From positions 1 through 64,000 of the forward strand of contig CAILLO010000009.1 in the NCBI GenBank assembly GCA_903835065.1: a stretch of DNA of 64,000 nucleotides. Direction: 5' to 3'. Each line of letters begins with the position of its first letter. Positions within the stretch are counted from its first letter, which is position 1. Below the pieces are notes generated by a model, which was given only the letters and a program-made list of their open reading frames with translations, did no database searches and had not been told where the DNA came from. Positions 5,409 to 57,586 of the stretch are shown one piece after another. The stretch is from an uncultured Eubacteriales bacterium (GTDB lineage Bacteria; Bacillota; Clostridia; Saccharofermentanales; UBA5734). A program made the position numbers and the translations under genes.

Positions 5409-5454
5409 GTCCGTCTCCTGTCCTGTCTTGCGGTGCGCGGCTTGGAATGGCTCG

Positions 5455-5484
5455 ATTATACCGTACGCACACCGTCGTTTTCAA
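5455..5484 (-). promoter_or_regulatory. Promoter for the MFS gene
   Basis: Read on the minus strand: TTGAAA, an 18-base spacer, then TATAAT, about 45 bases upstream of the GTG start at 5408. The same ten bases around the -10 box recur at 19191-19200. Confidence 0.65.
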
Positions 5485-5488
5485 CATA

Positions 5489-5508
5489 GTTACAAAAATT
5501 TCTGTAAC
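5489..5508. promoter_or_regulatory. Palindromic operator between divergent genes
   Basis: A 20-base near-perfect palindrome with GTTACA and TGTAAC arms around an A/T-rich centre. It lies next to the -35 boxes of both divergent promoters, so one bound regulator could repress both the MFS gene and the CGD pair. LacI-family proteins encoded at 7094 or 19332 are candidates, by proximity only. Confidence 0.65.
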
Positions 5509-5510
5509 TC

Positions 5511-5539
5511 TTGCTTTACATTTTCACAGGGCTTACAAT
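5511..5539 (+). promoter_or_regulatory. Promoter for CGD set 2
   Basis: TTGCTT, a 17-base spacer, then TACAAT, about 47 bases before the ATG at 5586. The palindrome at 5489 ends two bases upstream of the -35 box. Confidence 0.65.
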
Positions 5540-5585
5540 AGGTTCATCCTGTCCGGAACTCCCTGATAGAAGGAGGAAGACGCCC

Positions 5586-11175: not shown

Positions 11176-12639
11176 CTACGCGTTCTGGCTGTAGAGGTCG
11201 ACGAGGTATTCCACGGCGTGCTCGCCGGCCATGCGGCCGCTGTTCAGTGCGAAGCCCATCGTGTTGCCGGGCAGGATGAAGACGTAGGAGTCGCCGAAGA
11301 TCGTGCAGGCGTCGGTGCCGGCGGCGTAAAGTCCCGGGATCGTGTTCCACTCGGTGTCCTGGACCTCGGTCTTGTAGTTGATCTTGATGCCGCCCAGCGA
11401 CCCGTACGCGCCGGGAGCCATCGTCACGCAATAGAAGCGAGGGCCCTTCAGGGGCTTCAGGTAGCGGGCGTCCTTGTTGAAGAGCTCGTCGCGGGACTTG
11501 CAGGCGGCGTTGTACTCGGCGACGGTCTTCTTGAGGTTCTCGGCGTGGATTCCGGTCTTCGCGGCCAGTTCCTCGATGCTGTCGGCCGCGACGACGTAGG
11601 GGTCGCCCGCCTTCTGGGCCGCGGCCATCTCGGCGTCGTATCCGTCGCAGCTGCGGATGTGCGAGACCAGGTTGAACTTGTCGACGCCGTTCTTGATGTA
11701 GTAGTTCTTGATCGAATCGTCGATGATCGAATAGCCGAAGCTGTTCTTCTGGGTGGTCAGCGCATTGGAGAAGAACGTCGTGTTGCTCATGACCTCTTCG
11801 TTGACGAAGCGCTCGCCCTGGAGGTTGACGCAGAGGTTCGGCTGGCAGTGGACGGCCTTGACGGTACCGTAGTCGCCCTGGCTGGGGCTCGAATACGCGA
11901 CCTCCATGTTGAAATCGGTCTTGGCCGCGCCGACGTCCCAGGCCATCTTCATGCCGTCGCCGACGACGCCGGGGATGCGGAAGCTGAACATGTTCTTGCC
12001 GTACTCGTACTGCGTGTACTGCTTGATCATCTCCGGGTTGTCGCCGAAGCCGCCGGTCGCAACGACGACGGCGCTGCAGTCGATGCGGATCTCCTCGCCG
12101 GTCTTGTCGGTCGCGAGCACGCCGACGATGCGGCCGTTCTCGCGCAGGATCTTCTTCGCGGGCGTCTCGAGCAGCAGCTGGGCGCCCAGCTCCTCGAGGC
12201 GGCGGGTCATCACGCGCAGCATGCCGGACGCCGCACGGGGACCGATCTCGCCGTTCTCGGGCTTGACGATGTGCCAGGTGGCCTCGGATTCCGGGAAGTA
12301 CTTGAACGCGCCCGCGAACTCGACGCCCATGCCCTGCAGCCAGTCGATCGTGCTGCCGGACTTGTACAGGTACTCGCGGACCAGGCGCGCGTCGACGCGC
12401 CAGTGCGTGTAGTCCATGAAGCGGCGGAAGGCCTCTTCCTTGGTGATGCCGATCAGCGACTCGCGCTGGATCCGGGTCTCGATGCCGAGCGGGCCCATGC
12501 CCATGTTGCTGGCGCCGCCGGTCGTGCTGGCCTTCTCGAGCACGATGACGCGCGCTTCCTTTTCCGCCGCCGCGTTGGCGGCCGCGAGGCCGGCGGGGCC
12601 GGCGGCGATGACGACGAGATCGCATTCCATTCTCTTCAT
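11176..12639 (-). CDS. FAD-dependent reductase (fumarate reductase flavoprotein-like)
   Basis: 487 residues. Dinucleotide-binding start LVVIAAGPAGLAAAN (Ala-Ala-Gly where most have Gly-x-Gly), a VVVATGGFGDNPEM segment, and a C-terminal GLYAAGTDA ... PGNTMGFALNSGRMAGE motif closing the FAD site. It is the single-domain type without fused FMN or cytochrome domains. Relatives reduce activated C=C bonds (fumarate, urocanate, cinnamates). Placed right after CGD set 3 and before an FMN reductase, it is a good candidate for reducing the double bond of a released flavonoid or phenylpropenoid aglycone. ATG behind GGAGGAAG. Confidence 0.85.
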   Translation of the reverse strand: MKRMECDLVVIAAGPAGLAAANAAAEKEARVIVLEKASTTGGASNMGMGPLGIETRIQRESLIGITKEEAFRRFMDYTHWRVDARLVREYLYKSGSTIDWLQGMGVEFAGAFKYFPESEATWHIVKPENGEIGPRAASGMLRVMTRRLEELGAQLLLETPAKKILRENGRIVGVLATDKTGEEIRIDCSAVVVATGGFGDNPEMIKQYTQYEYGKNMFSFRIPGVVGDGMKMAWDVGAAKTDFNMEVAYSSPSQGDYGTVKAVHCQPNLCVNLQGERFVNEEVMSNTTFFSNALTTQKNSFGYSIIDDSIKNYYIKNGVDKFNLVSHIRSCDGYDAEMAAAQKAGDPYVVAADSIEELAAKTGIHAENLKKTVAEYNAACKSRDELFNKDARYLKPLKGPRFYCVTMAPGAYGSLGGIKINYKTEVQDTEWNTIPGLYAAGTDACTIFGDSYVFILPGNTMGFALNSGRMAGEHAVEYLVDLYSQNA

Positions 12640-18038: not shown

Positions 18039-19136
18039 CTAGAATCGAACGATGTCGTGGATTTCGTGGGACTTGTAGATGGCCTCGAGGACCTGGGTGA
18101 CGACGATCGCCTGCTCCGGCAGGACCAGGGGCTGCGTGTCGTGGATCACGGCCTTGAGCCACTGCTCGGCCTCGAGCGTTCCCGGGTCGCCGCTGCGGCC
18201 TTCGAAGTATGCGACGCCGCCGGCGCCCGCGATCTCCTCGTCGATCATCTTGCCGTACTTGGTCGTGTTGAGCACCAGGCGATACGGAGCGCCCATGCCG
18301 CCCTTGATCTCGGCGCCGCCCTCGGTGCCGCACAGCGTGGTGGCGGCTTCCTTTGCGTCGGTCGTGTTCAGGGCCCAGGCGGCCTCCAGGTAGATCGTCG
18401 CGCCGTTCTCCATCTTGATGAAGCCGAACGCGGAGTCCTCGACCTCGAAGGTCTTCGGGTCCCAGGGACCGAACACGTTGGCCTCGAATTTGTCGGCCAT
18501 CTTCCAGAACACCGAGCCGGAGACGCTGGCAGGCTTGTAGTTGCCCATCATCCAGAGGGTCAGGTCGAGCGCGTGCGTGCCGATGTCGATCAGCGGTCCG
18601 CCGCCCTGCAGGGCCTTGTTCGGGAACACGCCCCAGGTCGGGACGGCGCGCCGGCGCACCGCGTGCGCCTTTGCGAAGTAGACGTCTCCGAGGAAGCCGC
18701 TGTCGACGGCCTTGCGCAGCGCGATCACTTCGTCGCGGAAGCGGTTCTGGTAGCCGATCGTGAGCTTCTTGCCGGACTTCTTCGAGGCGTCGAGCATCTT
18801 CTTGGCGTCGGCGTAGGTATGGGCCATCGGTTTCTCGCACAGGACGTGCTTGCCGGCCTCGAGGGCCGCGACGGTCATGGGCGAATGCATGACGTTCGGG
18901 GTCAGGACGTGGACGACGTCGATCTTCTCGTCCTTGAGCATCTCGGTGTAGTCGGTGTAGGTCTTCGCATGCGGGGCGCCGTACTTGTCGGCGGCCTTCT
19001 TCGCGCGCTCGGGGAGGATGTCGCAGAAGGCGACCAGTTCGCACAGGTCCGGGAACTTGACCAGCGAGGGGAGGTGCTTCTGGTTGGCGATGCCGCCGCA
19101 GCCGATGAAGCCGATCTGGAGCTTTCCGTTCTTCAT
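18039..19136 (-). CDS. Gfo/Idh/MocA family oxidoreductase
   Basis: 365 residues: Rossmann start IGFIGCGGIANQKHLPSL with intact GxGGIA, CEKPMAHTY (EKP motif, about residue 95), YQNRFRDEV, and the GGGPLIDIGTHALDLTLWMMG segment that carries the catalytic His/Asp region of the family. Cytosolic NAD(P)-dependent sugar or glycoside dehydrogenase. It has a strong own promoter and shares the upstream gap with the divergent LacI gene at 19332, so it is the likely target of that regulator. The family includes the glycoside 3-dehydrogenases that feed CGD enzymes, which fits here. Confidence 0.92.
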   Translation of the reverse strand: MKNGKLQIGFIGCGGIANQKHLPSLVKFPDLCELVAFCDILPERAKKAADKYGAPHAKTYTDYTEMLKDEKIDVVHVLTPNVMHSPMTVAALEAGKHVLCEKPMAHTYADAKKMLDASKKSGKKLTIGYQNRFRDEVIALRKAVDSGFLGDVYFAKAHAVRRRAVPTWGVFPNKALQGGGPLIDIGTHALDLTLWMMGNYKPASVSGSVFWKMADKFEANVFGPWDPKTFEVEDSAFGFIKMENGATIYLEAAWALNTTDAKEAATTLCGTEGGAEIKGGMGAPYRLVLNTTKYGKMIDEEIAGAGGVAYFEGRSGDPGTLEAEQWLKAVIHDTQPLVLPEQAIVVTQVLEAIYKSHEIHDIVRF

Positions 19137-19194: not shown

Positions 19195-19223
19195 ATTATA
19201 TCGGCTGTAAAGAAAAGCGTCAA
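19195..19223 (-). promoter_or_regulatory. Strong promoter of the Gfo/Idh/MocA gene
   Basis: On the minus strand TTGACG, a 17-base spacer and TATAAT, about 60 bases upstream of the ATG at 19136. Confidence 0.7.
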
Positions 19224-19232: not shown

Positions 19233-19331
19233 GTTATTTACAAAATCGCTTTCATATGTTTTCATGTAAGAAACGACTCCCTCACCGCATCCCGTCATGC
19301 GACGACCGAGTCCCGGCAGGGGGTAGGCACC

Positions 19332-20333
19332 ATGAAGTCCGTCACCATCCAGGATGTCGCCAATGAGGCCCAGGTCTCCATCGCGACGGTCTCCCGCGTC
19401 CTCAGCGGAAAGGGCCAGGTCTCGGCCGAGCGCCGGAACCGCGTGCTCGAGGCCGCCGATCGGCTGGACTACACCACCGACCTCAAGGTGAGGGCGCCGC
19501 GGAAAGTCGAGGCCCGCATCCTGCTGATGATCGTGCCCCGGATCTCCAACCCCTTCTACGCCGAAATCGTCCACGGCTTCCAGAATACGGCCTACAAGAA
19601 CGGCTACGAGGTCATGCTCTGCCAGTCCATGTCCAATCCGCGACGACTCGAGGAATACATCGAGCTCATGCGCAGCGGCGTCGCCGAAGGCGCCGTCACG
19701 CTCGACCCGATGACCGGGCTCGACGTCTTCGCGACACTCGTCGGCAAGTTCCCGCTCGTGCAGTGCTGCGAATACAACGAGGCGCTCTCTTCCTCCTACG
19801 TCGCGGTCGACAACGTCCGCGCCGCCCGCGAGGTCGTGCACTTCCTCCACTCGATCGGATGCCGACGGATCGCCCTCCTCAATTCCGGTCTCAACTTCAA
19901 GTACGCGCGCGACCGCCAGCAGGGCTACGAGGAAGGGCTCCAGGAACTCGGCCTGCCGGTCCGCCCCGAAGGGATCGCCCACGTCTCCGACGTGAACTTC
20001 AATCTCGCGCTCGGAGTCGCCGAGCGTCTTCTGGGCGGCACTCCGCCGCCCGACGCCGTCTTCGCGGTCTCGGACGTCTACGCGGCCGCCGTGGAGAAGG
20101 CCGCGAAGCGCATGGGGATCCGCGTCCCGCAGGACCTCGCCGTCGTGGGCTTCGACAACATCGACGTCTCCCTGATGTGCGATCCGTCGATCACGACCGT
20201 CAACCAGCCCCGATACGAGATCGGCGCCTTCGCCTGCGACATGCTGCTCGAGCGGATCCGCACGCCGGAGACCCCCGTGCGCCAACTGATCCTCAACACG
20301 GAGCTGATCGTCCGCGATTCGACGCTTCGGTAG
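19332..20333 (+). CDS. LacI family transcriptional regulator
   Basis: 333 residues. Helix-turn-helix TIQDVANEAQVSIATVSRVLSG (residues 5-26), then a sugar-binding-protein-like sensor with NPFYAEIVHGFQ, SVDNVRAA-type and VVGFDNIDVSLM segments. It is divergent from the Gfo/Idh/MocA gene and faces the fused CGD gene, whose stop is 10 bases away. Predicted to repress the adjacent oxidoreductase gene through the palindrome at 19206; no clear promoter for the regulator itself was found. Confidence 0.93.
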   Translation: MKSVTIQDVANEAQVSIATVSRVLSGKGQVSAERRNRVLEAADRLDYTTDLKVRAPRKVEARILLMIVPRISNPFYAEIVHGFQNTAYKNGYEVMLCQSMSNPRRLEEYIELMRSGVAEGAVTLDPMTGLDVFATLVGKFPLVQCCEYNEALSSSYVAVDNVRAAREVVHFLHSIGCRRIALLNSGLNFKYARDRQQGYEEGLQELGLPVRPEGIAHVSDVNFNLALGVAERLLGGTPPPDAVFAVSDVYAAAVEKAAKRMGIRVPQDLAVVGFDNIDVSLMCDPSITTVNQPRYEIGAFACDMLLERIRTPETPVRQLILNTELIVRDSTLR

Positions 20334-20342: not shown

Positions 20343-21755
20343 CTACTTCCGCACGCCCATGGTCACCTTGGCGCGGTCGGTCCACAGGAACGGAAGGTAA
20401 TAAGTCCGGATCTGGTGCGAGTAGTCGAACTCGTGCGGCTTCGACTCGTCGAGTCCGCCCGGCAGGTCGACGAGCACCTTGACCGTGCGCCCGTAGTTCC
20501 AGTAGTACGCTTGGATCGTGGCCATCTCGGCGAACGCGAACCGCTGGCCTTCGACTTCGAAGGAGATCCGGTCGGGTCCGTACAGGAAGCCGTCCACCGC
20601 GACGCGGCAGTCGTCGACGAGGCACAGCGGCACGCCGCGATAGTAGAAGCAGCGCGACTCGATCTCGAACCCGGCGATCTTCCCGTCCGCGCCGACGAGA
20701 TTCCGGTAGCCGAGGTTGCTGAGCGCCTGGGTGTCCGTGGATTTCTCGGCCAGGGTCGGCATCGGGAAGCCGGGGTATGTGCCGATGCAGCGGTCGAGCA
20801 TCGTCTGGAAGCGGCGCAGCGGCAGGAACGGGTCGCCCGGCACGGGGCCGCCCTCGTACTCGGAGGAGATGTAGCCGGCGTATCCGCCCTGGACCAGCAC
20901 GGGCAGGACGTTCGGGTAGTCGATGCTGGTCTCCTCGCAGTGCTCGTCCATCTCCCAGAACTTGCCGTGGATATGGAGGATGTAGGGCATGTGCTCGAGC
21001 AGGACCTTCGGATCGTGGGACTCCGTGCGCCAGCACTGGCGGAGGAAGGCGGCCTCGGCGGGCGGGCGCGGGTCGAGGAGCATGCGCTCGCAGCGGGCCC
21101 GGTAGGCCTCGTTGGATTCCTGCTCGTAGACCGTCTTCATGGTTTCGATCAGGACCGGGTCGACGTTCGCGGCGCGTGCGGCGCGCATGAAGTAGACGCC
21201 TTCGGTGATGTGCTTCACGAACATGCTCATGTCGGGGATGATGCCGAGATAGGGCGTGTTCTTCTTCCGGATGATCTCGATCGTCTCCTGGATAATGGGG
21301 AGGATCCAGGACGAGGAGCCGTTGTGGATCTCGACGCCGAGTTTGACGCCGTATTCCTCGCAGATCGGGGCGGCCTCGGCGAAGAGCCGTGGGTCGAAGG
21401 TGCCGCCGATGCGGAGGATCGGGCAGTCAATCGCGGCCGCGAACCGGACGTGGCGCTTCACGATGTCGACGGACTCCCGGAGGGTGAGGTCGCGGTGCCG
21501 GAACATCGTGCGGTCGACGAAGAAGTCGTGGGCGACGGTCTTCGTGCCGTATTTCCACATCATCTCCTTCCACAGCGCGAGGTCTTCCTGGTTCACGTCG
21601 GGGCAGTTGCGGAAGAAGAGCTGGCCGAGCAGCTCGATGCCGTTCACGCCCATGTTGGCCATGGCCGCGATGCACTGGTCCCAGGTGAGCTGGCCCTCCG
21701 CGACGAGCTGCTTGAAACTGTAGACCGTGACACCCCGCTTGATCAGGTTCATCAT
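20343..21755 (-). CDS. Single-chain CGD alpha-beta fusion, set 4
   Basis: 470 residues. Residues 1 to about 335 form the TIM-barrel alpha part, with all four ligand motifs: GVEIHNGSSSW, GIIPDMSMF, HIHGKFWEMDE and ISSEYEGG. After a linker around 335-350, residues to the end match the beta subunit: RCFYYRGVPLCLVDDCRVAVDG, FAEMATIQAYYWNYGRTVKV and a final VTMGVRK strand. The other four sets encode beta separately and mostly upstream, so this fusion also has reversed order. ATG overlaps the stop of a short upstream gene (ATGA). A frameshift artefact is unlikely because both domains read through one uninterrupted frame with preserved motifs. Confidence 0.88.
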   Translation of the reverse strand: MMNLIKRGVTVYSFKQLVAEGQLTWDQCIAAMANMGVNGIELLGQLFFRNCPDVNQEDLALWKEMMWKYGTKTVAHDFFVDRTMFRHRDLTLRESVDIVKRHVRFAAAIDCPILRIGGTFDPRLFAEAAPICEEYGVKLGVEIHNGSSSWILPIIQETIEIIRKKNTPYLGIIPDMSMFVKHITEGVYFMRAARAANVDPVLIETMKTVYEQESNEAYRARCERMLLDPRPPAEAAFLRQCWRTESHDPKVLLEHMPYILHIHGKFWEMDEHCEETSIDYPNVLPVLVQGGYAGYISSEYEGGPVPGDPFLPLRRFQTMLDRCIGTYPGFPMPTLAEKSTDTQALSNLGYRNLVGADGKIAGFEIESRCFYYRGVPLCLVDDCRVAVDGFLYGPDRISFEVEGQRFAFAEMATIQAYYWNYGRTVKVLVDLPGGLDESKPHEFDYSHQIRTYYLPFLWTDRAKVTMGVRK

Positions 21756-21904
21756 GTCCCGCTCCCTTCGATGACGACCGTCCGGCCCAGCCGGTGGGAC
21801 TCGAAGCAGGCCTCGACGAGCTTCATGACGCGCATCACCTGCGCGTTCTCCACGATCGGGCCGGCCTTGCCCTCGATCGCGATGCCGTGGTTCCGATTCT
21901 CCAT
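21752..21904 (-). pseudogene. 50-residue Gfo/Idh/MocA C-terminal remnant with intact translation start
   Basis: The short product (HGIAIEGKAGPIVENAQVM followed by RVMKLVEACFESHRLGRTV) reads like the last 45 residues of a Gfo/Idh/MocA oxidoreductase, whose C-termini end in helices of the type VIEACYESARTGR. It starts at an ATG behind AGGAGGG, downstream of a good promoter, and its stop overlaps the start of the fused CGD gene (ATGA). The simplest reading is an internal deletion that removed the oxidoreductase body but kept the start and the coupling signal. It may now act as a leader peptide driving CGD translation. Confidence 0.6.
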
Positions 21905-21936: not shown

Positions 21937-21965
21937 AGTATAGCAACTCATGAAAGAAACTTCAA
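21937..21965 (-). promoter_or_regulatory. Promoter of the fused CGD operon
   Basis: On the minus strand TTGAAG, a 17-base spacer and TATACT. The sequence around the -10 box closely resembles the promoter at 48264. It overlaps the palindrome at 21949-21975. Confidence 0.65.
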
Positions 21966-21975
21966 ATTTTTCATG
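21949..21975. promoter_or_regulatory. 27-bp operator CATGAAA-N13-TTTCATG
   Basis: Perfect 7-base inverted arms separated by 13 A/T-rich bases, lying on the -35 region of the fused CGD promoter and upstream of the divergent flavodoxin gene. The same arms and spacing occur at 57587-57613 in front of CGD set 5. Confidence 0.7.
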
Positions 21976-22044
21976 GAGTTTTCAGAAAACCGATGGTACA
22001 CTGGAGAAGATAATGGCCCCCCCTACGAAGAGAAGGAGTCGACC

Positions 22045-23013
22045 ATGAAGAGCGTCCTCGTCTACTACTCCCAGACCGACAGCACCCGCAAGGTGGCCCG
22101 CGCGATCCGCGACGGCGTCCGCGAGGAGACCGGGCAGTGCGACCTCTTCACGGTCAAGCAGGCCAAGGAACTGGACCTCTTCGGATACGACCTCGTCGGC
22201 CTGGGCTCCCCGATCTGGATGGGCGCCGAGACGCCCAACCTCCGCATCTGGATCGACGCGCTGCCGCACCAGAGTGGCCGGCATGCCTTCGCCTTCAACA
22301 CGCACGGGGTCATGCCCGAGCTCTACTTCCCGAGCCTCGTCCGACGCCTGGAATACAAGGGCTTCACGGTGCTCGGGACGCGAGACTGGTTCGGCGAAGC
22401 CCGCTTCCAGACCGCGGCCTCCCCCTACTATACGACGGGGCACCCCGACGAGGTCGACCTGCAGGAAGCCCGCGACTTCGGGCGCGAGATGGCCCGCAAC
22501 TCCCCGCGCGTCGCCGCCAGCGAGACCGCCCTCGTGCCGCCCGTCCCCGAGCTGGCCTGGACGCCGCAGCTCCAGATCCTGTTCGAATTCTTCAAGACGG
22601 GGCACAACCCGCACGGCTACATGACCTACGACCGCTCGAAGTGCAACTACCCCAAGTGCCGCATCTGCGTCGACAACTGCCTCATGCAGTACATCGACTT
22701 CGACAAGGAACCGAGGCGGTACGGGTCGTGCGGCGACCACTGCGACATGTGGATGGGCTGCACGTTCTGCGAGGCGGTCTGCCCGACCGGGGCGATTTCG
22801 TGCGATTGGGAAGCCCAGGAGAAGCGCAACGTGTCCGGCGGGTTCCGCGTCGGCGGCAACGCGCTGCACGACGGCGCGCTCAAGATGATCGAGGAGGGGC
22901 GCCTGCGCATGAAGCTGCCGCTCGAGTCGATCGACTGGGGGCACCAGTTCCGCCACGAGCACCCCAAGCACCCGCGCTACAAGGTTCCGAAGAAGGAACC
23001 CGACGAGATCTAG
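22045..23013 (+). CDS. Flavodoxin-ferredoxin fusion protein (EFR1-like)
   Basis: 322 residues. The N-terminal flavodoxin domain begins VLVYYSQTDSTRKVARAI (FMN phosphate loop) and runs to about residue 150. The C-terminal part holds two cysteine groups, CNYPKCRICVDNC and CGDHCDMWMGCTFCEAVCPTG, suited to two 4Fe-4S clusters with an unusual first group. Such proteins carry electrons between ferredoxin or flavin donors and reductases in the cytosol. Divergent from the fused CGD gene and sharing its palindromic operator region, it probably supplies electrons for reduction of an aglycone. Start at the ATG behind GAAGGAG. Confidence 0.85.
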   Translation: MKSVLVYYSQTDSTRKVARAIRDGVREETGQCDLFTVKQAKELDLFGYDLVGLGSPIWMGAETPNLRIWIDALPHQSGRHAFAFNTHGVMPELYFPSLVRRLEYKGFTVLGTRDWFGEARFQTAASPYYTTGHPDEVDLQEARDFGREMARNSPRVAASETALVPPVPELAWTPQLQILFEFFKTGHNPHGYMTYDRSKCNYPKCRICVDNCLMQYIDFDKEPRRYGSCGDHCDMWMGCTFCEAVCPTGAISCDWEAQEKRNVSGGFRVGGNALHDGALKMIEEGRLRMKLPLESIDWGHQFRHEHPKHPRYKVPKKEPDEI

Positions 23014-36910: not shown

Positions 36911-38395
36911 CTATATCGAAGTCGGAGGACGGCGCAGTCCGCCGAGTCCGCCGAGTCCTGCCGGCTTGGCCTTGAAGCTGCCGACCGGCACGGGTTCGGG
37001 CGGCGTCTGCGGCTTCACGGTGCCGGCGCGCGCCACCGCGCCCGCGATCGGACGGCAGACCGCCTCGCAGATGGCGCACTGGTTGCAGATGTCCTGGTCG
37101 ATGACGTGGATGAACTCCGGTTCGCCCGAAATGGCATGGACGGGGCACTTGGGCAGGCATTCTCCGCAGCCGGTGCACTTGTCGGGCAGGATGTGGAACG
37201 TGGCGTACTTGGCGCAGACCAGCGTCGGGCACTTCTTCCGCTTCATGTGCTGCTCGAATTCGTCGCTGAAGTGCGCCTGCACGGTGGTCGCGACGTCGCT
37301 CGCGGTGCGTCCGACCGAGCATAGCGACCCCTCGCGCATCCCGGTCGCGAGCTCTCCGAGCGTCTCGAGGTCGTCGGCCCGGGTCTTGCCCTGCGTGGCG
37401 TCGAGCAGCAGCTCGCGCACCTGCCAGGAGCCTTCGCGGCACATCGTGCAGCGGCCGCAGGAGGCCTCTTCCAGGAAGGTCATCTGCCGCACGGCGTAGT
37501 CGACGGCGCAGGTCCGCTGGTCGAGCACTTCGATGCTGCCGGAGCCGAGCTTCCGACCGCAGGCTTCGAAGGCACCGTAGTCGAGGGCGACGTCGAGTTC
37601 GTCGGGTCCGAGGACAGGGCCGTTGGGACCGCCGACCTGGACGAACTTCAAGGTGGAGCCGGGGGCCATCCCGCCGCACAGGTCGTCGAGGACGGTGCGC
37701 AGCGGCGTGCCGAGCGGCAGCTCGTGGAGGCCGGGGCGGGCGACCGGTCCCTGCACCGAGAAGAACTTGGTGCCGGGCGCCTTCGAATCCGCGTCGGCGC
37801 GGAACAGCGCGGCGATCTGCGCGAGCGTCTCCGCGTGGTGCACCACGGTCGGGCGTCCGTCGAAGCCGCGCTCGGCGGGCTCGGGCGGCGTCAGCGCGGA
37901 CATGGTGGGGCGGCCCGCCATGGAGGCGAGCAGCGCGGTGTCCTCGCGGCAGACGAAGCGGGCCTCGACGGGGGCGACCGCCAGCGGCAGCGCGACGCCC
38001 ATCGCGCGGATGGCTTCGGTCAGGCGGGCCTGGAGCGCCGGGTTCTCGCGGTCGACGGCGACGTACCCCTGCGTCGCGCCGACGGCGCGGGCGACGATCG
38101 CGAGGCCCTCCAGCGCGCCGAGCGGGTCGGCAGCCAGCAGCGTCGCGGCGGCCGGCATGCGGGGGTCCGCGTCGAGCGCGTTGAGGACGACGGTCTTCGG
38201 CCCGGCCGGCCGGGCCAGGCACAGGCGCCACTTCTCGGCGACGGGCCGGCCCTGTCCGCCGCGGCCGCGGAGGCCGACGGCCTCGACGCGGGCGAGGATC
38301 TCCGCGGGCGGCAGCGCGAGCGCGCGGCGCAGCGCCTCGGTGCGGACGGCGGCGTCGACGGGGACTTCGGGTAGCATGCGAAGCTCAGTGGACAT
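36911..38395 (-). CDS. NuoF/HndC-like NADH-binding electron-transfer subunit with ferredoxin tail
   Basis: 494 residues. The FMN/NADH loop appears as GLRGRGGQGRPVAEKW (Gln-Gly-Arg-Pro where Nuo has Ala-Gly-Phe-Pro). The cluster motif ASCGRCTMCREGS plus a later Cys in SLCSVG binds N3-type 4Fe-4S. The C-terminus adds two 4Fe-4S sites, CTGCGECLPKC and CNQCAICEAVC, as in HndC/HydB subunits of soluble NAD(P)-linked complexes. It overlaps by 11 bases with the NuoG/GltD-like gene, its likely partner. No NuoE-like gene is present in the window. Last gene of the long unit from 48209. Confidence 0.88.
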   Translation of the reverse strand: MSTELRMLPEVPVDAAVRTEALRRALALPPAEILARVEAVGLRGRGGQGRPVAEKWRLCLARPAGPKTVVLNALDADPRMPAAATLLAADPLGALEGLAIVARAVGATQGYVAVDRENPALQARLTEAIRAMGVALPLAVAPVEARFVCREDTALLASMAGRPTMSALTPPEPAERGFDGRPTVVHHAETLAQIAALFRADADSKAPGTKFFSVQGPVARPGLHELPLGTPLRTVLDDLCGGMAPGSTLKFVQVGGPNGPVLGPDELDVALDYGAFEACGRKLGSGSIEVLDQRTCAVDYAVRQMTFLEEASCGRCTMCREGSWQVRELLLDATQGKTRADDLETLGELATGMREGSLCSVGRTASDVATTVQAHFSDEFEQHMKRKKCPTLVCAKYATFHILPDKCTGCGECLPKCPVHAISGEPEFIHVIDQDICNQCAICEAVCRPIAGAVARAGTVKPQTPPEPVPVGSFKAKPAGLGGLGGLRRPPTSI

Positions 38396-40493
38396 CGTAT
38401 TCCCCCCAGAACTTCTGCCGGGTGATCCCCAGGCGCAGGTCGCACTGCAGGCAGCGGCCGGACTCGTAGCCGGCCGCGTCGCAGCCGTAGCCGCGGTCGA
38501 CCAGGGTCGCGAGGTCGAGCGTCTCGACGGGCGCGTAGTCCGTGCAGGTGCGCGGCACGGAGGCGAACCCCTCCTGCCGGCCGATATACGGGTCGGCGGG
38601 TCGCTTCGGCGCAAGCGCCTCGTCGAGCAGGCCCAGTCCGCCGAGGCGGCGGTCGATGGCGGAGGCGGCGCGGCGGCCCGCGGCGATGGCCTCGATCACG
38701 GAGGCGGTGCCGATCACGGCGTCGCCCGCCGCGTAGACGCCGGGGACGGCGGTCTCGAGCGTCTCGGGGTCGGCGGCGATGCGGTTGCCCCGGGCGAGCG
38801 GCAGGCCGAAGTCCGCCGTCAGGTCGGGGCGCTGGCCGACGGCGAAGACGATCGTGTCGGCGGGAATGACGTGCTCGGAGCCGATCTCGCAGAGGATCAC
38901 GGCGCGGCCCTGCTCGTCGAAGTGGAACGAGCAGACCTTGCTGCACTTGACGCCGGTCACGTGCCCGTCCTCGCCCTCGATGCCCTGGAAGGTCACCGAG
39001 GCGTGCACGGTCGTGCCCTCGTCGAGGGCTTCGTCGATCTCCTCCGGACTCGCCTTCATCTCGTTGCGGGCCTCGAGGCAGACGACGGTCACGTCCTTCG
39101 CGCCGAGCCGGCGCGCGGCGCCCGCGCAGTCGAAGGCGACGTTGCCGCCGCCGAGCACGACCACGCGCTCGCCGACCGGCACCTTCTCGCCGAGGCTGAC
39201 GCGACGCAGGAAGTCGGTGTTGATCAGGATGCCGGACAGGTCGGCGCCGGGGATCGGAAGCCGGGCGCCCTGGTGGGTGCCGACCGCCGCGAGGACGGCG
39301 TCGTACCCGGCCTCGAGCAACACGGGGGCGCAGTCGACCTTCGAATCGGTGCGGATCTCGACGCCGAGCGCCGTGACTTCGGCGATCTCGCCGGCGAGGA
39401 TATCGGACGGCAGTCGATAGCCCGGAATGCCGACGCGCATCATGCCGCCCGCGACGGGCAGCGCTTCATGCACGACGACGGAATGTCCCAGTTTCGCGAG
39501 GTAGAACGCGGCGGTGAGTCCGGCCGGTCCGGAGCCGATCACGGCGACCTTCCTTCCGGTCGGCGGGAGCCGGAACGACCCGGTGCGCCAGGAGCCGTCG
39601 TCCTGCGACGCGGCGAAGCGCTTGAGCTGCTTGATGGAGACGGCCTCGTCCACTTCGGCGCGGCGGCACTTCGTTTCGCAGACGTGGTTGCAGATGTAGC
39701 CGAGGACGGCCGGGAACGGGACCTTCTCGCGCACGACGGCGTTGGCTTCGGCCGCGCGGCCCTCCTTGACGAGGCGGATGTAGCGCGGGATGTCGATGCC
39801 GGCGGGGCAGGCGGCGCGGCAGGGCACGAGCGCATCGTCGCGTTTCATGTCCGTCCGGACGACGCCGATCTGGTCCATGATCGAACCGGTCGGGCACACT
39901 TCGACGCAGGCGCCGCAGAACTTGCAGCCGGAATCCGCGAGGGTGCCGTTCTTCGGGAGGACGCGGACGCGGCCGTCCTTGCGCCCGAACGTCAGGGCGT
40001 CGACGCCGCGCACGTCGCTGCAGGCGCGCACGCATCGGCCGCAGAGGATGCAGCGGTACATGTCGTGGTAGACGAGCGGGTTGCGCAGGTCGGGTTCGAT
40101 CAGGTTCGGGCGCTTGCGCAGGTGCTGGTCCGTGACCTCGAGGTACTGGATCAGCGATTGCAGTTCGCACTTCAGGTACTTGTTGCAGGACGTGCACTCG
40201 GAGGGGTGCGGCGCGAGCACGAGCTCCGCGGCGAGCCTGCGCAGCCGGTTGAGCCGCGCCGTGCGCGTGACGACGACCATTCCGTCCGTCGCGGGCGTCG
40301 AGCAGGAGGTGACGGGGTCCGCCACGCCCTCGACCTCGACGACGCACAGGCGGCAGGAGCCGGCCGGCGCGAGGTCGTCGTGGGAGCAGAAGTGGGCGAT
40401 GTAGACGCCGGCGGCGAGCGCCGCCTGCAGGACCGACTGGCCCGGCTGCGCCACGATCTCCTTGCCGTCGAGGGTGAAGCGGATTCCATCCAT
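38385..40493 (-). CDS. NuoG N-terminal domain fused to GltD-like FAD/NAD(P) oxidoreductase
   Basis: 702 residues. Residues 1 to about 215: a 2Fe-2S domain (FCSHDDLAPAGSCRLC, then a Cys in VTSCSTP), a His/Cys cluster segment (HPSECTSCNKYLKC), and two 4Fe-4S sites (CILCGRCVRAC, CKFCGACVEVC). Residues about 215-650: the glutamate-synthase small-subunit fold with CRAACPAGIDIP, the FAD loop IGSGPAGLTAAFYLA and the second nucleotide loop VLGGGNVAFDC. A short Cys pair (CLQC) ends the chain. This would pass electrons between NAD(P)H, ferredoxin and the NuoF-like partner, possibly by bifurcation. Confidence 0.9.
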   Translation of the reverse strand: MDGIRFTLDGKEIVAQPGQSVLQAALAAGVYIAHFCSHDDLAPAGSCRLCVVEVEGVADPVTSCSTPATDGMVVVTRTARLNRLRRLAAELVLAPHPSECTSCNKYLKCELQSLIQYLEVTDQHLRKRPNLIEPDLRNPLVYHDMYRCILCGRCVRACSDVRGVDALTFGRKDGRVRVLPKNGTLADSGCKFCGACVEVCPTGSIMDQIGVVRTDMKRDDALVPCRAACPAGIDIPRYIRLVKEGRAAEANAVVREKVPFPAVLGYICNHVCETKCRRAEVDEAVSIKQLKRFAASQDDGSWRTGSFRLPPTGRKVAVIGSGPAGLTAAFYLAKLGHSVVVHEALPVAGGMMRVGIPGYRLPSDILAGEIAEVTALGVEIRTDSKVDCAPVLLEAGYDAVLAAVGTHQGARLPIPGADLSGILINTDFLRRVSLGEKVPVGERVVVLGGGNVAFDCAGAARRLGAKDVTVVCLEARNEMKASPEEIDEALDEGTTVHASVTFQGIEGEDGHVTGVKCSKVCSFHFDEQGRAVILCEIGSEHVIPADTIVFAVGQRPDLTADFGLPLARGNRIAADPETLETAVPGVYAAGDAVIGTASVIEAIAAGRRAASAIDRRLGGLGLLDEALAPKRPADPYIGRQEGFASVPRTCTDYAPVETLDLATLVDRGYGCDAAGYESGRCLQCDLRLGITRQKFWGEYDVH

Positions 40494-40502
40494 GGAGGGC
40501 TC

Positions 40503-41741
40503 CTACCGGGCCGGGCCCGTGAGGGCCGCCGCGTCGTCCGTCGGCGCCGGGGCGGCCTTGCGGAAGGTCAGGGACACGAGGACCGCGACCCCGCAGAGTG
40601 CGGCGGCGACATAGTAGGCCCAGAAATAGGACTTCGTCGCGTCGACGAAGGAGGCCGCCACCATGGGGCCGATGACCCCGCCGGTGCCCCACGCGGTCAT
40701 GAGCAGACCGTAGTTCGAGCCGTAGTTCTTCACGCCGTAGCGCTCGATGACCGTGGACGGGAACACCGCGAACAGCGCGCCGTAGAAGAGACCCGTGAGG
40801 GCGGCGCCGACCGCGAGGGTCGGGATGTCGGTGAACAGCGGGAAGAGGCACATGGTCGCGGCGAGGCCGAGGAACACGAGGCGGAGCAGGACGATGCGCC
40901 CGAGGCGGTCGGAGACCCAGCCGCCCAGGATGCGTCCGCCGGCGTTGAAGATCGCGAGCAGGATGACGAGCAGGAAGCCGCCGTCCCAGTTCGCCTGGAT
41001 TTTCACGATCTTGGCGGCGTGGCCGATGATCATGAGCCCGGCCGCGGAGGAGAAGGCCAGCATGATCCAGAGGCGCCAGAAGTCCAGCTTGCGGACCATG
41101 ACCTTCCAGTCGACGTCCGGGGCGAACACGTGCTGCGCGGAGGTCGTCGCCTCGACCGGCGGATACCCGGCCGGCGGGTTCTTCAGGAACTGGGCCAGTG
41201 CGAGGACGAGGACGAAGATGCCCGCGCCGAGGGTGAGGAAGGTCGTGTCGATGCCGAAGCGCTTGATCATGAAGTCGGTGAACGGTGCGTAGAACGCCGA
41301 CGCGATGCCGATGCCGGCCGCGACGAGGCCCGTCACCATGCCCTTGCGGCTCGCCGGGAACCACTTGACGGCCGGCGGCGAGGTGGAGACGTTGCTCAGG
41401 CCGATGCCGGCACCGGTGATGACGCCGAACGTGAGCACCATGACGGTCGGGTTCCGGGTCAGGCCGGACAGGACCAGTCCGAGGCCCATCAGGATGCCGG
41501 ACAGCGTCCCGGTGAGGCGCGGCCCCCTGCGGTCCTGGAGTCGTCCGGTGAGGGCCATCGTGACGACGAAGGAGACCAGGGCGGCGGTATAGGGGAGCGA
41601 GGCCTGGGTGCTGGTCCAGCCCCATTTCTCGACCATTCCCTTGGCGATGACGCTCCAGATGTAGAGAAGGCCGGCGAGGAAGTTGATGCCGGTCGCGATG
41701 CCGAGCATTCCGTTCGCCCTGGACTTGAGGGGGTCGAGCAT
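40503..41741 (-). CDS. MFS transporter, oxalate/formate antiporter (OFA) type
   Basis: 412 residues with twelve hydrophobic segments. The opening GIATGINFLAGLLYIWSVIAKG, TGRLQDRRGPR loop and STSPPAVKWFPASRKGM segment are typical of the OFA family, which exchanges carboxylates. In the long unit with esterases and a butyrate kinase it may export a carboxylic end product or import an aromatic acid. A 9-base gap separates it from the electron-transfer genes downstream. Confidence 0.88.
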   Translation of the reverse strand: MLDPLKSRANGMLGIATGINFLAGLLYIWSVIAKGMVEKWGWTSTQASLPYTAALVSFVVTMALTGRLQDRRGPRLTGTLSGILMGLGLVLSGLTRNPTVMVLTFGVITGAGIGLSNVSTSPPAVKWFPASRKGMVTGLVAAGIGIASAFYAPFTDFMIKRFGIDTTFLTLGAGIFVLVLALAQFLKNPPAGYPPVEATTSAQHVFAPDVDWKVMVRKLDFWRLWIMLAFSSAAGLMIIGHAAKIVKIQANWDGGFLLVILLAIFNAGGRILGGWVSDRLGRIVLLRLVFLGLAATMCLFPLFTDIPTLAVGAALTGLFYGALFAVFPSTVIERYGVKNYGSNYGLLMTAWGTGGVIGPMVAASFVDATKSYFWAYYVAAALCGVAVLVSLTFRKAAPAPTDDAAALTGPAR

Positions 41742-41792
41742 GGGGTCCTCCGTTCGGTCTCTTCGTCGGGGTCGGTTGGCGGCCGCTCCGTC

Positions 41793-43553
41793 CTATCGGT
41801 AGATGTAGTCGCCGGCGACGTAGCGCGGCGGGATCGAGGGAATCTGCAGGTACGACTCGTACGCGCCGCCCGTGTGGAACACGTGCTCGCCGTGGTTGTC
41901 GTGGTCCCACTCGAGGCGCTCGAACCAGCCCTCGCGGCGGTAGTCGCCCGTGATCTCGACGCGCAGCTGCTGGCCCTTGTGCCAGAGGCGGCTGGTCGGC
42001 CAGATCTCGATGTCGACCGGCACGATCTCGCCGGGCTTGAGGCGCTGCTCGCCCGTGTGGGCCTGGACCGGCTGCCAGTCGGTGGACAGCTTCGGGTCGA
42101 GTTCGCGGTGGGAGACGCGCATCTTGCCCCACGCGCCGGGGTGCGGCTCGCCGAGGACGCTGACGGGCAGGAAGTCCCCCTTCTCGTCGAGCTTCTTGAT
42201 GGCGATGAAGAGGTCCATGTCGTCGTGGCCGCGGGCCTCGACGTTCAGGTGCAGCTTCATGAAGCCGGTGATCTCGGTGTCCTCGGTGAATGTGACGTCG
42301 AAGTTCGTCGTGCCCGTCGCGCCGTCGTGCGAGACTTCGGCGACCTTCACGGGCGCCCGGTAGGACAGGGACTTCGTCGCGGCGTCGAGGTAGAGCTTCT
42401 TGTACTCGGTGCGGGCGAGCGGGAACTCCTTCTCGGGGCGGTCGGTCTGGAAGTCGTACTCGTAGGCGTCCTGCACCTCGATGCGGACCTTCGGGGTGAG
42501 CTCCCAGCCGTTGCGGATGCCCTTGAGGTAGCGGTCGAAGTACAGCTTGAGGTCCTCGAGGCCCTTGTTGCCGTAGGTGTCCGGCCACTCGAACTCGCGG
42601 TGCGCGCGCATCCACTTCCTGGACGTGCGGATCTTCTTGAAGCCCTCGAAGGAGCCGCGCAGGTGGAAGTGGTTCCAGCAGGCGGTCGCGTAGACCGGGA
42701 TGCGGATCTTCTCGAACTGCGGGATCTTGTCCTTCCAGTAGGCGTTCATGAACGGGTACTTGCAGGCCATGTAGACCATGTCGTCGATGTAGTTGTCGCC
42801 GGTCGTGAAGCCGACGACGCCCTCCATGAAGGCGTAGGCCGGGATGCCGCCCTCATAGGCGGATTCGCGGTACAGGTCGCCGGTCGCTTCCCACGGCGCG
42901 ATGCACGTGAGGTGGGGCGGCTGCTCCGCGGCGATGCGCCACTGGGTCATCGCGACGCCCGAGTTGCCGAACAGCGCGATCTTCCCGCTGCACCAGTCCT
43001 GGGTCGCGAGCCACTCGATCAGGTCGTAGCCGTCGCGGCCGTCCTGGGTGCCGAACAGGTGGTGGTCGCCCTCGGAGTGCCCGATGCCGCGCGGGTCGAC
43101 GTTGACGACGGCGTAGTCCTGGTGGCACCAGTAGCCCGGGTCGGCCGACTCGAACTTGGCCATCAGGGAGACCGTGCCCGCCGGCACGCCCATGATCTTC
43201 CACTCGTCCTGACCGTCGCCGGGGCGCTTGCCGAAGAAGCTCCAGGAAATGATCGCGGGGAGCTTGCCCTTCGCATGCTCGGGCAGGTAGACGTCGCAGT
43301 AGATCGTGACGCCGTCGCGCATCTTCACGCCGACGTCGTGGTGGGAGACGATGCCGGGTTCGGGATACACGGTCTCGGTCTTCTTCGGCGGGCAGAACGC
43401 GAACGTGTTGCCGCCGGGGCCCTGCGCCATGATCTCTTCCTTGGTCATCGGCTTGCGGGCCTTGCGGTAGTAGCAGTCGATGACCTCGCCGTTGAAGTCG
43501 ATCTTCTTGACGATGCGCTCGACGGGCTTGTTGATGATCTCCTCGGCCTTCAT
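41793..43553 (-). CDS. CocE/NonD family alpha/beta hydrolase
   Basis: 586 residues. The N-terminal alpha/beta hydrolase domain has RDGVTIYCDVYLP, VNVDPRGIGHSEG and the nucleophile Ser198 in ALFGNSGVAM. The C-terminal jelly-roll domain starts about residue 345 and carries FMKLHLNVEARGHDDMDLFI and HKGQQLRVEI. Members cleave aromatic esters or peptides. No signal peptide is seen. By context it could hydrolyse an acylated or galloyl-like aglycone. RBS GAGGAG upstream; the acyl carrier protein gene precedes it by 22 bases. Confidence 0.88.
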   Translation of the reverse strand: MKAEEIINKPVERIVKKIDFNGEVIDCYYRKARKPMTKEEIMAQGPGGNTFAFCPPKKTETVYPEPGIVSHHDVGVKMRDGVTIYCDVYLPEHAKGKLPAIISWSFFGKRPGDGQDEWKIMGVPAGTVSLMAKFESADPGYWCHQDYAVVNVDPRGIGHSEGDHHLFGTQDGRDGYDLIEWLATQDWCSGKIALFGNSGVAMTQWRIAAEQPPHLTCIAPWEATGDLYRESAYEGGIPAYAFMEGVVGFTTGDNYIDDMVYMACKYPFMNAYWKDKIPQFEKIRIPVYATACWNHFHLRGSFEGFKKIRTSRKWMRAHREFEWPDTYGNKGLEDLKLYFDRYLKGIRNGWELTPKVRIEVQDAYEYDFQTDRPEKEFPLARTEYKKLYLDAATKSLSYRAPVKVAEVSHDGATGTTNFDVTFTEDTEITGFMKLHLNVEARGHDDMDLFIAIKKLDEKGDFLPVSVLGEPHPGAWGKMRVSHRELDPKLSTDWQPVQAHTGEQRLKPGEIVPVDIEIWPTSRLWHKGQQLRVEITGDYRREGWFERLEWDHDNHGEHVFHTGGAYESYLQIPSIPPRYVAGDYIYR

Positions 43554-43575
43554 GTCGCTTCTCCTCGCTCCCGGC

Positions 43576-43803
43576 TCACGCCAGGCTCGCCACGTATTCG
43601 GCGGCTTCTCCGAAAGTCTTGCGACGACGGAATTCCATGAAATTGATGTCGACGCCGAATTCGTCCTCGAGCACGGCGATCATCTTCACCAGGTCGACCG
43701 ATTTCGCTCCGAGGTCCTCGAACCGGGTGCTCGCGTCCATGGGCCTGACGCCCACGAGCGAACCGCATTTCTCGATGATCCTGGCCAGCACTTCGTCCTT
43801 CAT
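43576..43803 (-). CDS. Stand-alone acyl carrier protein-like protein
   Basis: 75 residues folding like ACP: the attachment Ser35 lies in DLGAKSVDLVKMIAVLEDEFG, where most ACPs have Gly-x-Asp-Ser; here Lys precedes the Ser. Followed by the usual DINF strand-helix segment. It would carry acyl groups on 4-phosphopantetheine added by AcpS. No ketosynthase or adenylation gene is nearby; the neighbours are a CocE-type hydrolase and butyrate kinase, an unusual setting that hints at acyl transfer to or from a degradation intermediate. Confidence 0.85.
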   Translation of the reverse strand: MKDEVLARIIEKCGSLVGVRPMDASTRFEDLGAKSVDLVKMIAVLEDEFGVDINFMEFRRRKTFGEAAEYVASLA

Positions 43804-43827
43804 GTCCCTTCTCCCTTTCTTCCTTCC

Positions 43828-44934
43828 CTATCGCCGGAATCCGCTCCAGACGGGCACGCCCGTATAGGTCTTCGGCTGTTCCTCTCCGGTCAGCACGCGC
43901 CGTGCGCCGCTGGCCATCGCCTCCATCTCGAACTCGCCCGGCATCGCGACGACGGGGGCGATGAATCCGACCATCTCCCGGACCTTTTCCACCAGGTACG
44001 CGTCCCGCGCGATGCCGCCGGTCAGGAGGATCGCGTCGACCTGCCCGTGCAGCACGGCCGCGTAGGCGCCGATGCTCTTGCCGATCTGATAGACCATCGC
44101 GTCGTACACGAGCTTCGCATAGACGTCGCCCGCCCTGATCCGTTCCTTGACTTCCAGCACTTCCGCCGTGCCCAGGTGGTCGACGAGTCCACCGTTCTTG
44201 GTCAGGTAGTCCATCATCTGCCGTTGCGTGAACTTCCCGGAGAAGCACATCCGGATCAGCGCGGCCCCGGGGACCGAGCCGGCCCGCGTCGGGGCGAAGG
44301 GTCCGTCGCCGTTGACGACGTCGGTGGTGTCGGCCATGCGGCCCTTCCGGTGCGCCGTCACGGAGACGCCGCCGCCGATGTGCGACACGACGAGGTCCAG
44401 GTCTTCATATCGCCGGCCGATCGAGGCGGCGTAGCGGATCGCGACTTCCTTCTGGTTCAGGGGGTGGCCGCGGCTCTCGCGCGCCGCATCGGCCAGACCG
44501 CACACGCGGGCGACCTCGTCCATCTCGTCGACGTCGGGCGGGTTGACCACGAACGCGCGCCCGCCGTAGGTGGCGGCGAACTCGGCGGCCAGCTGGCTGC
44601 CCAGCGTCGCCGGGTGCTTCACGGAGAAGCCGATGCGCGCGTGGTGCAGCAGGGCCTCGTTGATCTCGTACGTGCCGCCGTCGCAGCCGACGAGGCCGCC
44701 GCCGCGCCCGATGAAGGCGTCGGTGCCGTCGAGGGAGAGGCCGCGCTTCGACAGTTCGTTCAGGATTGTCTCGCGGCGGTAGGGCAGCTGGTCCGCGATC
44801 TCGGCGAAATCCTTCAAGCGCGCTGCATCGTGCGTCACGTTGACGGAGAAGATTTCCCGGTCGTCCTCGAAGAGGGCGACCTTGGTCGAGGTCGAGCCGG
44901 GGTTGATGGCGAACAGGCGGTAGATCTTCGTCAT
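43828..44934 (-). CDS. buk: Butyrate kinase (acetate/propionate kinase superfamily)
   Basis: 368 residues. Phosphate loop FAINPGSTSTKVALFED at the N-terminus, DLVVSHIGGGVSVTAH (substrate/ATP site), NGDGPFAPTRAGSVP and DAILLTGGIARD near the end are the pattern of the Buk subgroup. It makes ATP from butyryl phosphate or a branched or aromatic acyl phosphate. The start overlaps the stop of the URO-D gene (ATGA). The matching phosphotransacylase could be the distant pta product. Confidence 0.93.
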   Translation of the reverse strand: MTKIYRLFAINPGSTSTKVALFEDDREIFSVNVTHDAARLKDFAEIADQLPYRRETILNELSKRGLSLDGTDAFIGRGGGLVGCDGGTYEINEALLHHARIGFSVKHPATLGSQLAAEFAATYGGRAFVVNPPDVDEMDEVARVCGLADAARESRGHPLNQKEVAIRYAASIGRRYEDLDLVVSHIGGGVSVTAHRKGRMADTTDVVNGDGPFAPTRAGSVPGAALIRMCFSGKFTQRQMMDYLTKNGGLVDHLGTAEVLEVKERIRAGDVYAKLVYDAMVYQIGKSIGAYAAVLHGQVDAILLTGGIARDAYLVEKVREMVGFIAPVVAMPGEFEMEAMASGARRVLTGEEQPKTYTGVPVWSGFRR

Positions 44935-45890
44935 GCCGGAGCTCCTCCATGGATGCGGATCTCGTCGTTGAGGATTTTCATGGCCCAGGGGTCGTCCCGG
45001 ACGAAGGAGGGCTGGATCGCGAACCCCCCGCCGGGTGCGAGTTCGTCGATGGCCCGACGGACCTCCTGCCGGAGTTCCGCCTCCGTGACGCCCTCCCGGT
45101 CCAGCACGCCCTGGTTGTCGAGGCCGTAGAAGAAGGCCAGGCGGTTCTGGTAGCGAGTCTTCAGGCCACGGACGTCGTTCATCACCTGGCAGGGGTTCCA
45201 GGCGTCGACGCCCATCTCCACCATCGCCGGGACGAACGCCTCGACTTTCCCGTCGCAGTGCATCAGGAAGCGCGCGCCATGGGCGTGGACGACGTCGACG
45301 ATCCGCTGGGTTCCGGGTCGGAGGAACTCGTCGAACAGGTCCATGGAGAAGAACGGGGCGCCTTCGCTGCCCCAGTCGTCCATGTACTCGACGACGTCGG
45401 GGCGGTAGAGCGGCAGGACCTTCTCGAGGACGGCGACCTTGAAGTCCACGATCGCGTCGATCAGCTCGTGCATCGCCTCGGGCTGCTCGTGGAAGTTGCA
45501 GAATGCATCCTCGAAGCCCATCAGGCAGTGCAGGCGCTCGAACAGCCCGAACGGCTGGAGCAGGGCGAAGGCGCGTTCGGTCGGGTCCACGCCGCGGAGG
45601 TCCTGCTCGGCGGTGGCGACCCAGTCGACGCCGGAGAGGTCCGGGAAGAGGCTCTCCTCGCGCCAGCGGGTGATATCCGGCAGTCGCTTGAGGCCCGGAG
45701 TGGGCGTCGGCTGTCCGGTCTTCTCGTCGGTCGTCCAGTGGACGCCATAGGAATCGCACCCGCCTCCCCGACCGTCGTACCGGTCGCGGACGGCCGAGCA
45801 CACGCGCATGTCGGTCGCGACAGAGAAGTCGGGAATCCAGCGGGGCGTCCCCCCGCCCAGGGCGGTCAGGAGATTCTCGCGCTCGGTCAT
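44931..45890 (-). CDS. URO-D/MtaA-type methyltransferase family protein
   Basis: 319 residues of the uroporphyrinogen decarboxylase-like barrel. FLMHCDGKV supplies a His-x-Cys pair and WNPCQV a third Cys, the zinc-ligand layout of cobamide-dependent methyltransferases (MtaA/MtbA type) rather than true HemE. Such proteins serve in O-demethylation of methoxylated aromatics. No corrinoid protein gene is present in the window. Coupled by ATGA overlaps to the carboxylesterase upstream and butyrate kinase downstream. Confidence 0.83.
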   Translation of the reverse strand: MTERENLLTALGGGTPRWIPDFSVATDMRVCSAVRDRYDGRGGGCDSYGVHWTTDEKTGQPTPTPGLKRLPDITRWREESLFPDLSGVDWVATAEQDLRGVDPTERAFALLQPFGLFERLHCLMGFEDAFCNFHEQPEAMHELIDAIVDFKVAVLEKVLPLYRPDVVEYMDDWGSEGAPFFSMDLFDEFLRPGTQRIVDVVHAHGARFLMHCDGKVEAFVPAMVEMGVDAWNPCQVMNDVRGLKTRYQNRLAFFYGLDNQGVLDREGVTEAELRQEVRRAIDELAPGGGFAIQPSFVRDDPWAMKILNDEIRIHGGAPA

Positions 45891-47221: not shown

Positions 47222-47243
47222 CACGTCGCCTTCCGCTTCCCGC

Positions 47244-48263: not shown

Positions 48264-48306
48264 AGTATAGCAATCCGTCTTCGGGGTTTCAATTTATTTC
48301 ATGAAA
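48264..48306 (-). promoter_or_regulatory. Promoter of the 48209-36911 unit with CATGAAA half-sites
   Basis: On the minus strand TTGAAA, a 17-base spacer and TATACT (48264-48269). Just upstream, TTTCATGAAA (48297-48306) is a perfect palindrome of the arm found in the 21949 and 57587 operators, and it overlaps the stop codon of the amidohydrolase gene. Confidence 0.65.
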
Positions 48307-55497: not shown

Positions 55498-56070
55498 TCA
55501 GAGGATCCGGTTGAACTTGCCGGCGTCGCGCGGGCGGGCGTCCGGGCTCTCGGCGGGCACGCCGACCGAAAGGAAGTACATCGGCTCGTAGCCGGCGGGG
55601 ATGCCGAGGCGGGCCAGGAGCGGCGCGCCTTCGGGCGAGCGCAGGTAGTCCAGCACGCCGCCGATGAAGCAGGTGGCGAGGCCGAGGGAATGCGCCGCGA
55701 GGACGATGTTCTCGGCGAGGTGCGCGCTGTTGGTCGGCCCCCGGGAGGTCTCGCAGCAGACGAGGATGTCGGTCGGGGCGTGGAAGAAGACCTGGTAGTC
55801 GGGGTCCTTCAGGCGCTCGACCATGACCGGCGGCAGGTTCGGGCGGTCCTTGACCATGCGGACGAATCCGTCGCCGATCTCCTCGAGCAGGGCGCGGTCC
55901 TGCACGACGCACAGGTGCCAGGACTGGACGTTCATGCCGCTCGGCGCCGCGAAGCCGCAGGCGAGCAGGGTCTCGAGCTCGGCCTCGGTCAGCTGCCGGT
56001 CGCGCTGGAAGGCGCGGACGCTGCGGCGGGCGAGGATCGTGTCGACGACGGCGTTGTGGATGATGGTCAT
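55498..56070 (-). CDS. Nitroreductase-family FMN oxidoreductase
   Basis: 190 residues. The opening DTILARRSVRAFQRDR is the FMN-binding Arg-Arg-Ser motif; AAPSGMNVQSWHLCVVQD and GLATCFIGGVLDYL complete the pattern. NAD(P)H-dependent flavoenzyme of the cytosol, acting on nitro-, quinone or enone substrates. As third gene of the CGD set 5 operon it could reduce the released aglycone. Confidence 0.9.
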   Translation of the reverse strand: MTIIHNAVVDTILARRSVRAFQRDRQLTEAELETLLACGFAAPSGMNVQSWHLCVVQDRALLEEIGDGFVRMVKDRPNLPPVMVERLKDPDYQVFFHAPTDILVCCETSRGPTNSAHLAENIVLAAHSLGLATCFIGGVLDYLRSPEGAPLLARLGIPAGYEPMYFLSVGVPAESPDARPRDAGKFNRIL

Positions 56071-56082
56071 GGGGGTGCCCTC

Positions 56083-57057: not shown

Positions 57058-57094
57058 CTTCATCCTTCCTTCGTTCCGCTGCCGTGGCGCGGGT

Positions 57095-57514: not shown

Positions 57515-57586
57515 GGGGTCCCTTCCTTCCGCATCGTCGGTCCGAGAGGTCCGTCGGTCCGTTGCAGTTGAAACTTTCTGGATTTA

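Follow-up and report, generated by a model that had tools for sequence, protein, structure and literature searches.

A 27-bp palindrome that occurs twice in a 64,000-nucleotide window (the whole stretch of DNA that was analysed) is probably part of a cluster-specific TTTCATG operator, present at four promoter regions and bound by one factor encoded in the cluster, although binding by a single protein is a step that we infer. The four regions lie between the Gfo/Idh oxidoreductase and LacI genes, between the fused CGD and flavodoxin genes, between CGD set 5 and the VOC gene, and in front of the unit at 48209-36911. One cluster-encoded transcription factor would bind all of them, and with glycoside present the enzymes for sugar oxidation, C-C bond cutting and product processing would be produced together. 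Judged from its sequence and distribution, the putative regulatory element is real, specific to the cluster, largely conserved and ordinary in kind. What was observed directly is that the sites exist, that they are rare, that a second species partly conserves them, and that they overlap or lie close to conserved -35 and -10 boxes. The genes of the cluster, which lies in GC-rich DNA, are as follows.

18039-19136, minus strand: Gfo/Idh/MocA oxidoreductase (Pfam)
19332-20333, plus strand: LacI-family regulator (Pfam LacI)
20343-21755, minus strand: fused CGD, alpha TIM barrel plus beta (Pfam AP_endonuc_2 and CGDB)
21752-21904, minus strand: Gfo/Idh/MocA remnant of 50 codons, overlapping the start of the fused CGD by 4 bp
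22045-23013, plus strand: flavodoxin-ferredoxin protein (Pfam; 88% in the same-genus relative G001)
36911-48209, minus strand: unit headed by an FMN_red protein, with esterase, butyrate kinase, acyl carrier protein, CocE/NonD hydrolase, MFS and iron-sulfur flavoproteins (syntenic in G001)
53083-55425, minus strand: AraC-type membrane sensor/regulator (Pfam HTH_18), in the site 2 operon
55498-57514, minus strand: CGD set 5 beta and alpha subunits, and nitroreductase (Pfam)
57681-58202, plus strand: VOC (glyoxalase-fold) protein (Pfam)

Two copies of one palindrome and their rarity

The sequence-only reading had reported two palindromes with the same arms and spacing, and exact matching confirmed both, each with identical 7-bp arms around a 13-bp spacer.

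21949-21975, unstranded: site 1, CATGAAA-N13-TTTCATG, with the fused-CGD unit leftward and flavodoxin-ferredoxin rightward
57587-57613, unstranded: site 2, CATGAAA-N13-TTTCATG, with CGD set 5 leftward and VOC rightward

The divergent region that holds site 1 is 140 bp long and separates the flavodoxin-ferredoxin gene from the 50-codon ORF preceding the fused CGD; that of site 2 is 166 bp long and separates CGD set 5 from the VOC gene. Pattern searches, on which the genome-wide counts rest, detected only these two exact matches in the 2.51-Mb genome, both in the cluster, and none in 38 relatives. When two or fewer mismatches are allowed, 0.02 matches are expected in the window by shuffling. In composition-matched Markov simulations covering the 41 intergenic regions of the window, a gapped palindrome of any sequence with 7-bp arms (spacer 0-20) was common to two intergenic regions in 8 of 10,000 runs. 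A looser search of the relatives G008, G014 and G020 with three or fewer mismatches was discarded, as its 86-186 matches per genome are chance background.

The two 27-mers might also be a coincidence of AT-rich divergent promoters, with no shared regulator. Both do lie within AT-rich promoter DNA, the spacing of site 1 differs in G001, and the compact matches with one mismatch (see below) are mostly in genes. However, the simulations, the conservation of site 2 in G001 and the concentration of the compact form TTWCATGWAA in the cluster in two species all argue against coincidence, and we consider it very improbable.

A smaller element at four promoter regions

The same-genus comparison consists of one genome, G001, in which contig C77 is syntenic with 36-58 kb of the window and contig C148 with much of 10-23 kb. 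Site 2 reads CATGAAAATAGTACCATCCTTTTCAGG in G001 (C77:25524-25550), where 13 of 14 arm bases are kept and the flanks have diverged. The half-sites of site 1 persist as well, but 14 bp further apart. Because this spacing differs, the conserved unit is taken to be the half-site, compact or direct-repeat element, and the 27-bp palindrome is best described as one arrangement of a smaller putative element, either TTWCATGWAA or TTTCA direct repeats 10-11 bp apart. TTTCATG half-sites occur here in three forms: the compact TTWCATGWAA, direct repeats of 10-11 bp, and the inverted pair with TTTCA centres 18 bp apart (the 27-bp form). Besides the two palindromes, the following copies were found.

19250-19269, unstranded: site A, TTTCATATGT-TTTCATGTAA, with Gfo/Idh leftward and LacI rightward (G001: TTTCATGTGT-TTTCATGTAA)
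21969-21984, plus strand: site 1 direct repeat, TTTCATGGAG-TTTTCA, period 11
48297-48312, unstranded: site 3, TTTCATGAAAG-TTTCA, compact element plus direct repeat (G001: TTTCATGTAAGTTTCAGTAA)
57584-57593, unstranded: compact element TTACATGAAA, overlapping the left arm of site 2

A compact version beside the promoter at 48264 had already been noticed in the sequence-only reading, correctly: 48264-48269 is the -10 of a leftward promoter, and TTTCATGAAA matches exactly at 48297-48306, overlapping the stop codon of the gene at 48299-49309 (minus strand). Site 3 partly codes for the end of that gene, and it lies directly upstream of the FMN_red gene that heads the 48209-36911 unit; TTTCATGWAAGTTTCAGTAA is kept in G001, though it, too, is partly coding sequence from the end of the gene upstream. 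The fourth site, site A (TTTCATATGTTTTCATGTAA), is absent from that reading and was found by reading all cluster promoters; its G001 counterpart is TTTCATGTGTTTTCATGTAA. At the orthologous G001 promoters, sites 2, 3 and A are thus kept, and site 1 as re-spaced half-sites only. Tandem direct repeats of about 11 bp are present at sites A, 1 and 3, while site 2 is without a direct repeat of 10-11 bp.

In a pattern search, TTWCATGWAA occurs four times in this genome, three of them at cluster promoters, and three times in G001, two of them at orthologous promoters. A local regulon of four promoter regions is supported because of these counts. The reversed pattern, used as control, gave 0 in both genomes, and the leftover matches (the fourth of this genome and the third of G001), which are at the starts of translation genes, look like chance. 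For the direct-repeat form, 8 TTTCA repeats at 10-11 bp were observed in ten promoter regions (0.05 expected in simulation), orthologous promoters of G008 and G014 among them, but this form was first noticed in the very data that were counted, so that the repeat figures are supportive and no clean test. Genome-wide, four such repeats are in the cluster (one reusing the -35 of site 3) and five on contigs C46 and C64.

From the above, the shared operator that had been suggested for fused CGD/flavodoxin, CGD set 5/VOC and the 48209-36911 unit stands on its rarity and on its conservation in G001, but the 27-bp form is conserved as such only at CGD set 5/VOC. Two further searches were set aside. 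Extending the regulon genome-wide by the compact 10-mer with one mismatch was unspecific, the other matches being mostly within genes or at start codons, and a direct-repeat match on G001 contig C61 is a minisatellite.

Promoter placement and the history of site 1

The predicted promoter elements near the sites are listed below, with their G001 counterparts in brackets.

19195-19223, minus strand: leftward promoter of the Gfo/Idh gene, TTGACG-N17-TATAAT (TTGACA-N17-TATAAT)
21937-21965, minus strand: leftward promoter at site 1, TTGAAG-N17-TATACT, with the left arm of the palindrome in its spacer (TTGTAA-N17-TATAGT)
21997-22002, plus strand: rightward -10 of flavodoxin-ferredoxin, TACACT, predicted from sequence
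48264-48292, minus strand: leftward promoter of the 48209-36911 unit, TTGAAA-N17-TATACT (TTGTAA-N17-TACACT)
57594-57622, minus strand: leftward promoter at site 2, TTGACC-N17-TAACAT, overlapped by site 2 (TTGACC-N17-TACTAT)

Sites 1, 2 and 3 all have leftward -35/-10 pairs with 17-bp spacers, and all of these pairs are conserved in G001. The flavodoxin promoter has no good -35, and in both species its -10 follows the end of the direct repeat by 12 bp; the layout in G001 is similar, with TTTCATAGCG-TTTTCT and then TAGAAT. Site 2 lies across its leftward promoter, as would be the case for a repressor site, and at flavodoxin the direct repeat, 12 bp ahead of the -10, has the position of an activator site. 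Therefore the sign of regulation may differ from promoter to promoter.

The gene that faces flavodoxin in G001 is a full-length Gfo/Idh/MocA oxidoreductase. In the window, the first residues of the 50-codon ORF resemble the start of the G001 gene, and the remainder matches the C-terminal part (74% over 43 aa, 90% over 106 nt). A search of G001 for close relatives of the fused CGD found none, the best match being 32%. Taken together, these observations suggest that the fused CGD replaced most of a Gfo/Idh/MocA gene and inherited its promoter, as appears from the remnant; the direction and route of transfer are inferred. The third-position GC of the fused CGD is now like that of its neighbours. 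The only close relative found for it (70%; L045, 4001-5410) comes from a Eubacteriales MAG, with an unrelated neighbourhood and a different upstream region. Footprinting the fused CGD with this relative was abandoned, since the upstream context differs and the motif was not found there.

Candidate binding proteins and comparison with known systems

The identity of the protein and the sign of regulation are the least certain parts of the proposed regulon. If the element is real, the LacI regulator (19332-20333) ranks first among the putative binders, though only tentatively; some other protein comes next as a possibility, and the AraC-type protein (53083-55425) is a more doubtful choice.

By linkage, LacI is the best candidate. 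Its gene adjoins sites A and 1 in both species, and site A lies in its own promoter region and is kept in G001. Orthologues were found in G001 (81%), G014 (60%) and G020 (51%), and the recognition stretch VSIATVSR is the same; TTTCA repeats also occur in the divergent region of the G014 relative. The co-occurrence rests on the family, because a class-wide search of 391 sampled genomes found only the window's own LacI. The cluster resembles local autoregulated LacI-family sugar regulons (PMC4052901) in that the LacI gene is beside its putative targets, the motif lies in the divergent promoter of the regulator gene itself, and a small number of operons from a single pathway are involved. Unlike the predicted operators here, which have a CATG centre, a 27-bp form or direct repeats and a variable geometry, LacI-family operators are nearly always palindromes of even length, 16-22 bp, and the great majority have CG at the centre (PMC4052901). 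The “one regulator” of the sequence-only reading is plausible, but the usual geometry of LacI operators is not matched (PMC4052901). A search with the LacI-style centre TGWAANCGNTTWCA gave zero conserved sites. A LacI protein with an ordinary recognition helix might bind TTTCATG in an unusual geometry, with one-turn direct repeats and inverted pairs of about two turns, and so tie together four C-glycoside promoters, including the one taken over by the fused CGD; we regard this specific form as unlikely. The half-site TGWAA/TTWCA resembles half-sites of the CcpA/GalR type.

Alternatively, the element may be real and shared, with the AraC-type sensor as an activator acting from the direct repeats. 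The gene for this sensor belongs to the site 2 operon and has stayed with it in G001, whose protein (73%, near-identical HTH region) is the sole close orthologue in the family, and the direct-repeat layout and position before the flavodoxin -10 fit an activator of this type. However, searches at E 1e-40 gave no orthologue for it in G008 or G014, although TTTCA repeats are present in the related promoters of both genomes, and its gene is 30 kb away from sites A and 1. We give this alternative little weight. Against the proposed regulon as a whole, G008 has TTTCA repeats at its CGD promoter, yet a close orthologue of LacI or of the AraC-type sensor was not found in it at the cut-offs applied.

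Direct repeats of this kind are typical of the OmpR/PhoB family, and the cluster might answer a two-component signal through a response regulator encoded elsewhere, not a local sugar sensor. In partial agreement with this, half-sites about 11 bp apart are present at sites A, 1 and 3, though not at site 2, and those of the flavodoxin promoter lie 11-12 bp ahead of its -10, similar to OmpR/PhoB-type boxes. On C46 and C64, 11-bp TTTCA direct repeats (TTTCACGNNGATTTCA) adjoin two-component genes and are followed, 11 bp further on, by a -10-like hexamer. But the cluster repeats are unlike those of C46 and C64 beyond TTTCA[CT]G, inverted and compact forms occur as well, and no response regulator was found in the window; a two-component origin is, in our estimate, improbable. 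The five TTTCACGNNGATTTCA copies of this genome (L117-L121, each near 1501, on C46 and C64) are beside response regulator, sensor kinase or lipoprotein genes, and likely form a separate two-component regulon.

Other CGD modules have different elements. For example, the divergent promoter of another CGD set (window 5409-5585) carries the spaced palindrome AGTTACA-N8-TGTAACT. A paralogous Gfo/Idh-LacI divergent region adjoining another CGD pair (L060, 10581-10806, contig C25 of this genome) has TTTACA repeats, not TTTCATG, which suggests that each CGD module may have its own operator variant. In the window, 11176-12639 and 36911-48209 together hold a protein distantly like vinyl phenol reductase, with a match below the cut-off, a butyrate kinase, a phosphotransacetylase/butyrylase-type enzyme and iron-sulfur flavoproteins. 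These genes suggest a possible reductive processing of the phenolic aglycone.

Like the dgp and dfg C-deglycosylation clusters (PMC8563793), this cluster combines a Gfo/Idh/MocA oxidoreductase with CGD alpha and beta; in contrast to them, a single stretch here holds several CGD sets, of which one is fused, together with a predicted shared operator. No description of an operator for CGD genes was found in the open-access papers searched, mostly as titles and abstracts.

Enzymes for cutting the C-C bond in plant C-glycosides are already known. The predicted shared operator would link two CGD sets with redox proteins, a transporter and a large reductase/esterase unit, and thereby group genes of unknown role with the C-glycoside pathway. 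Site 1, in turn, suggests a way in which an enzyme gene that has newly arrived can come under a regulated promoter already in place.
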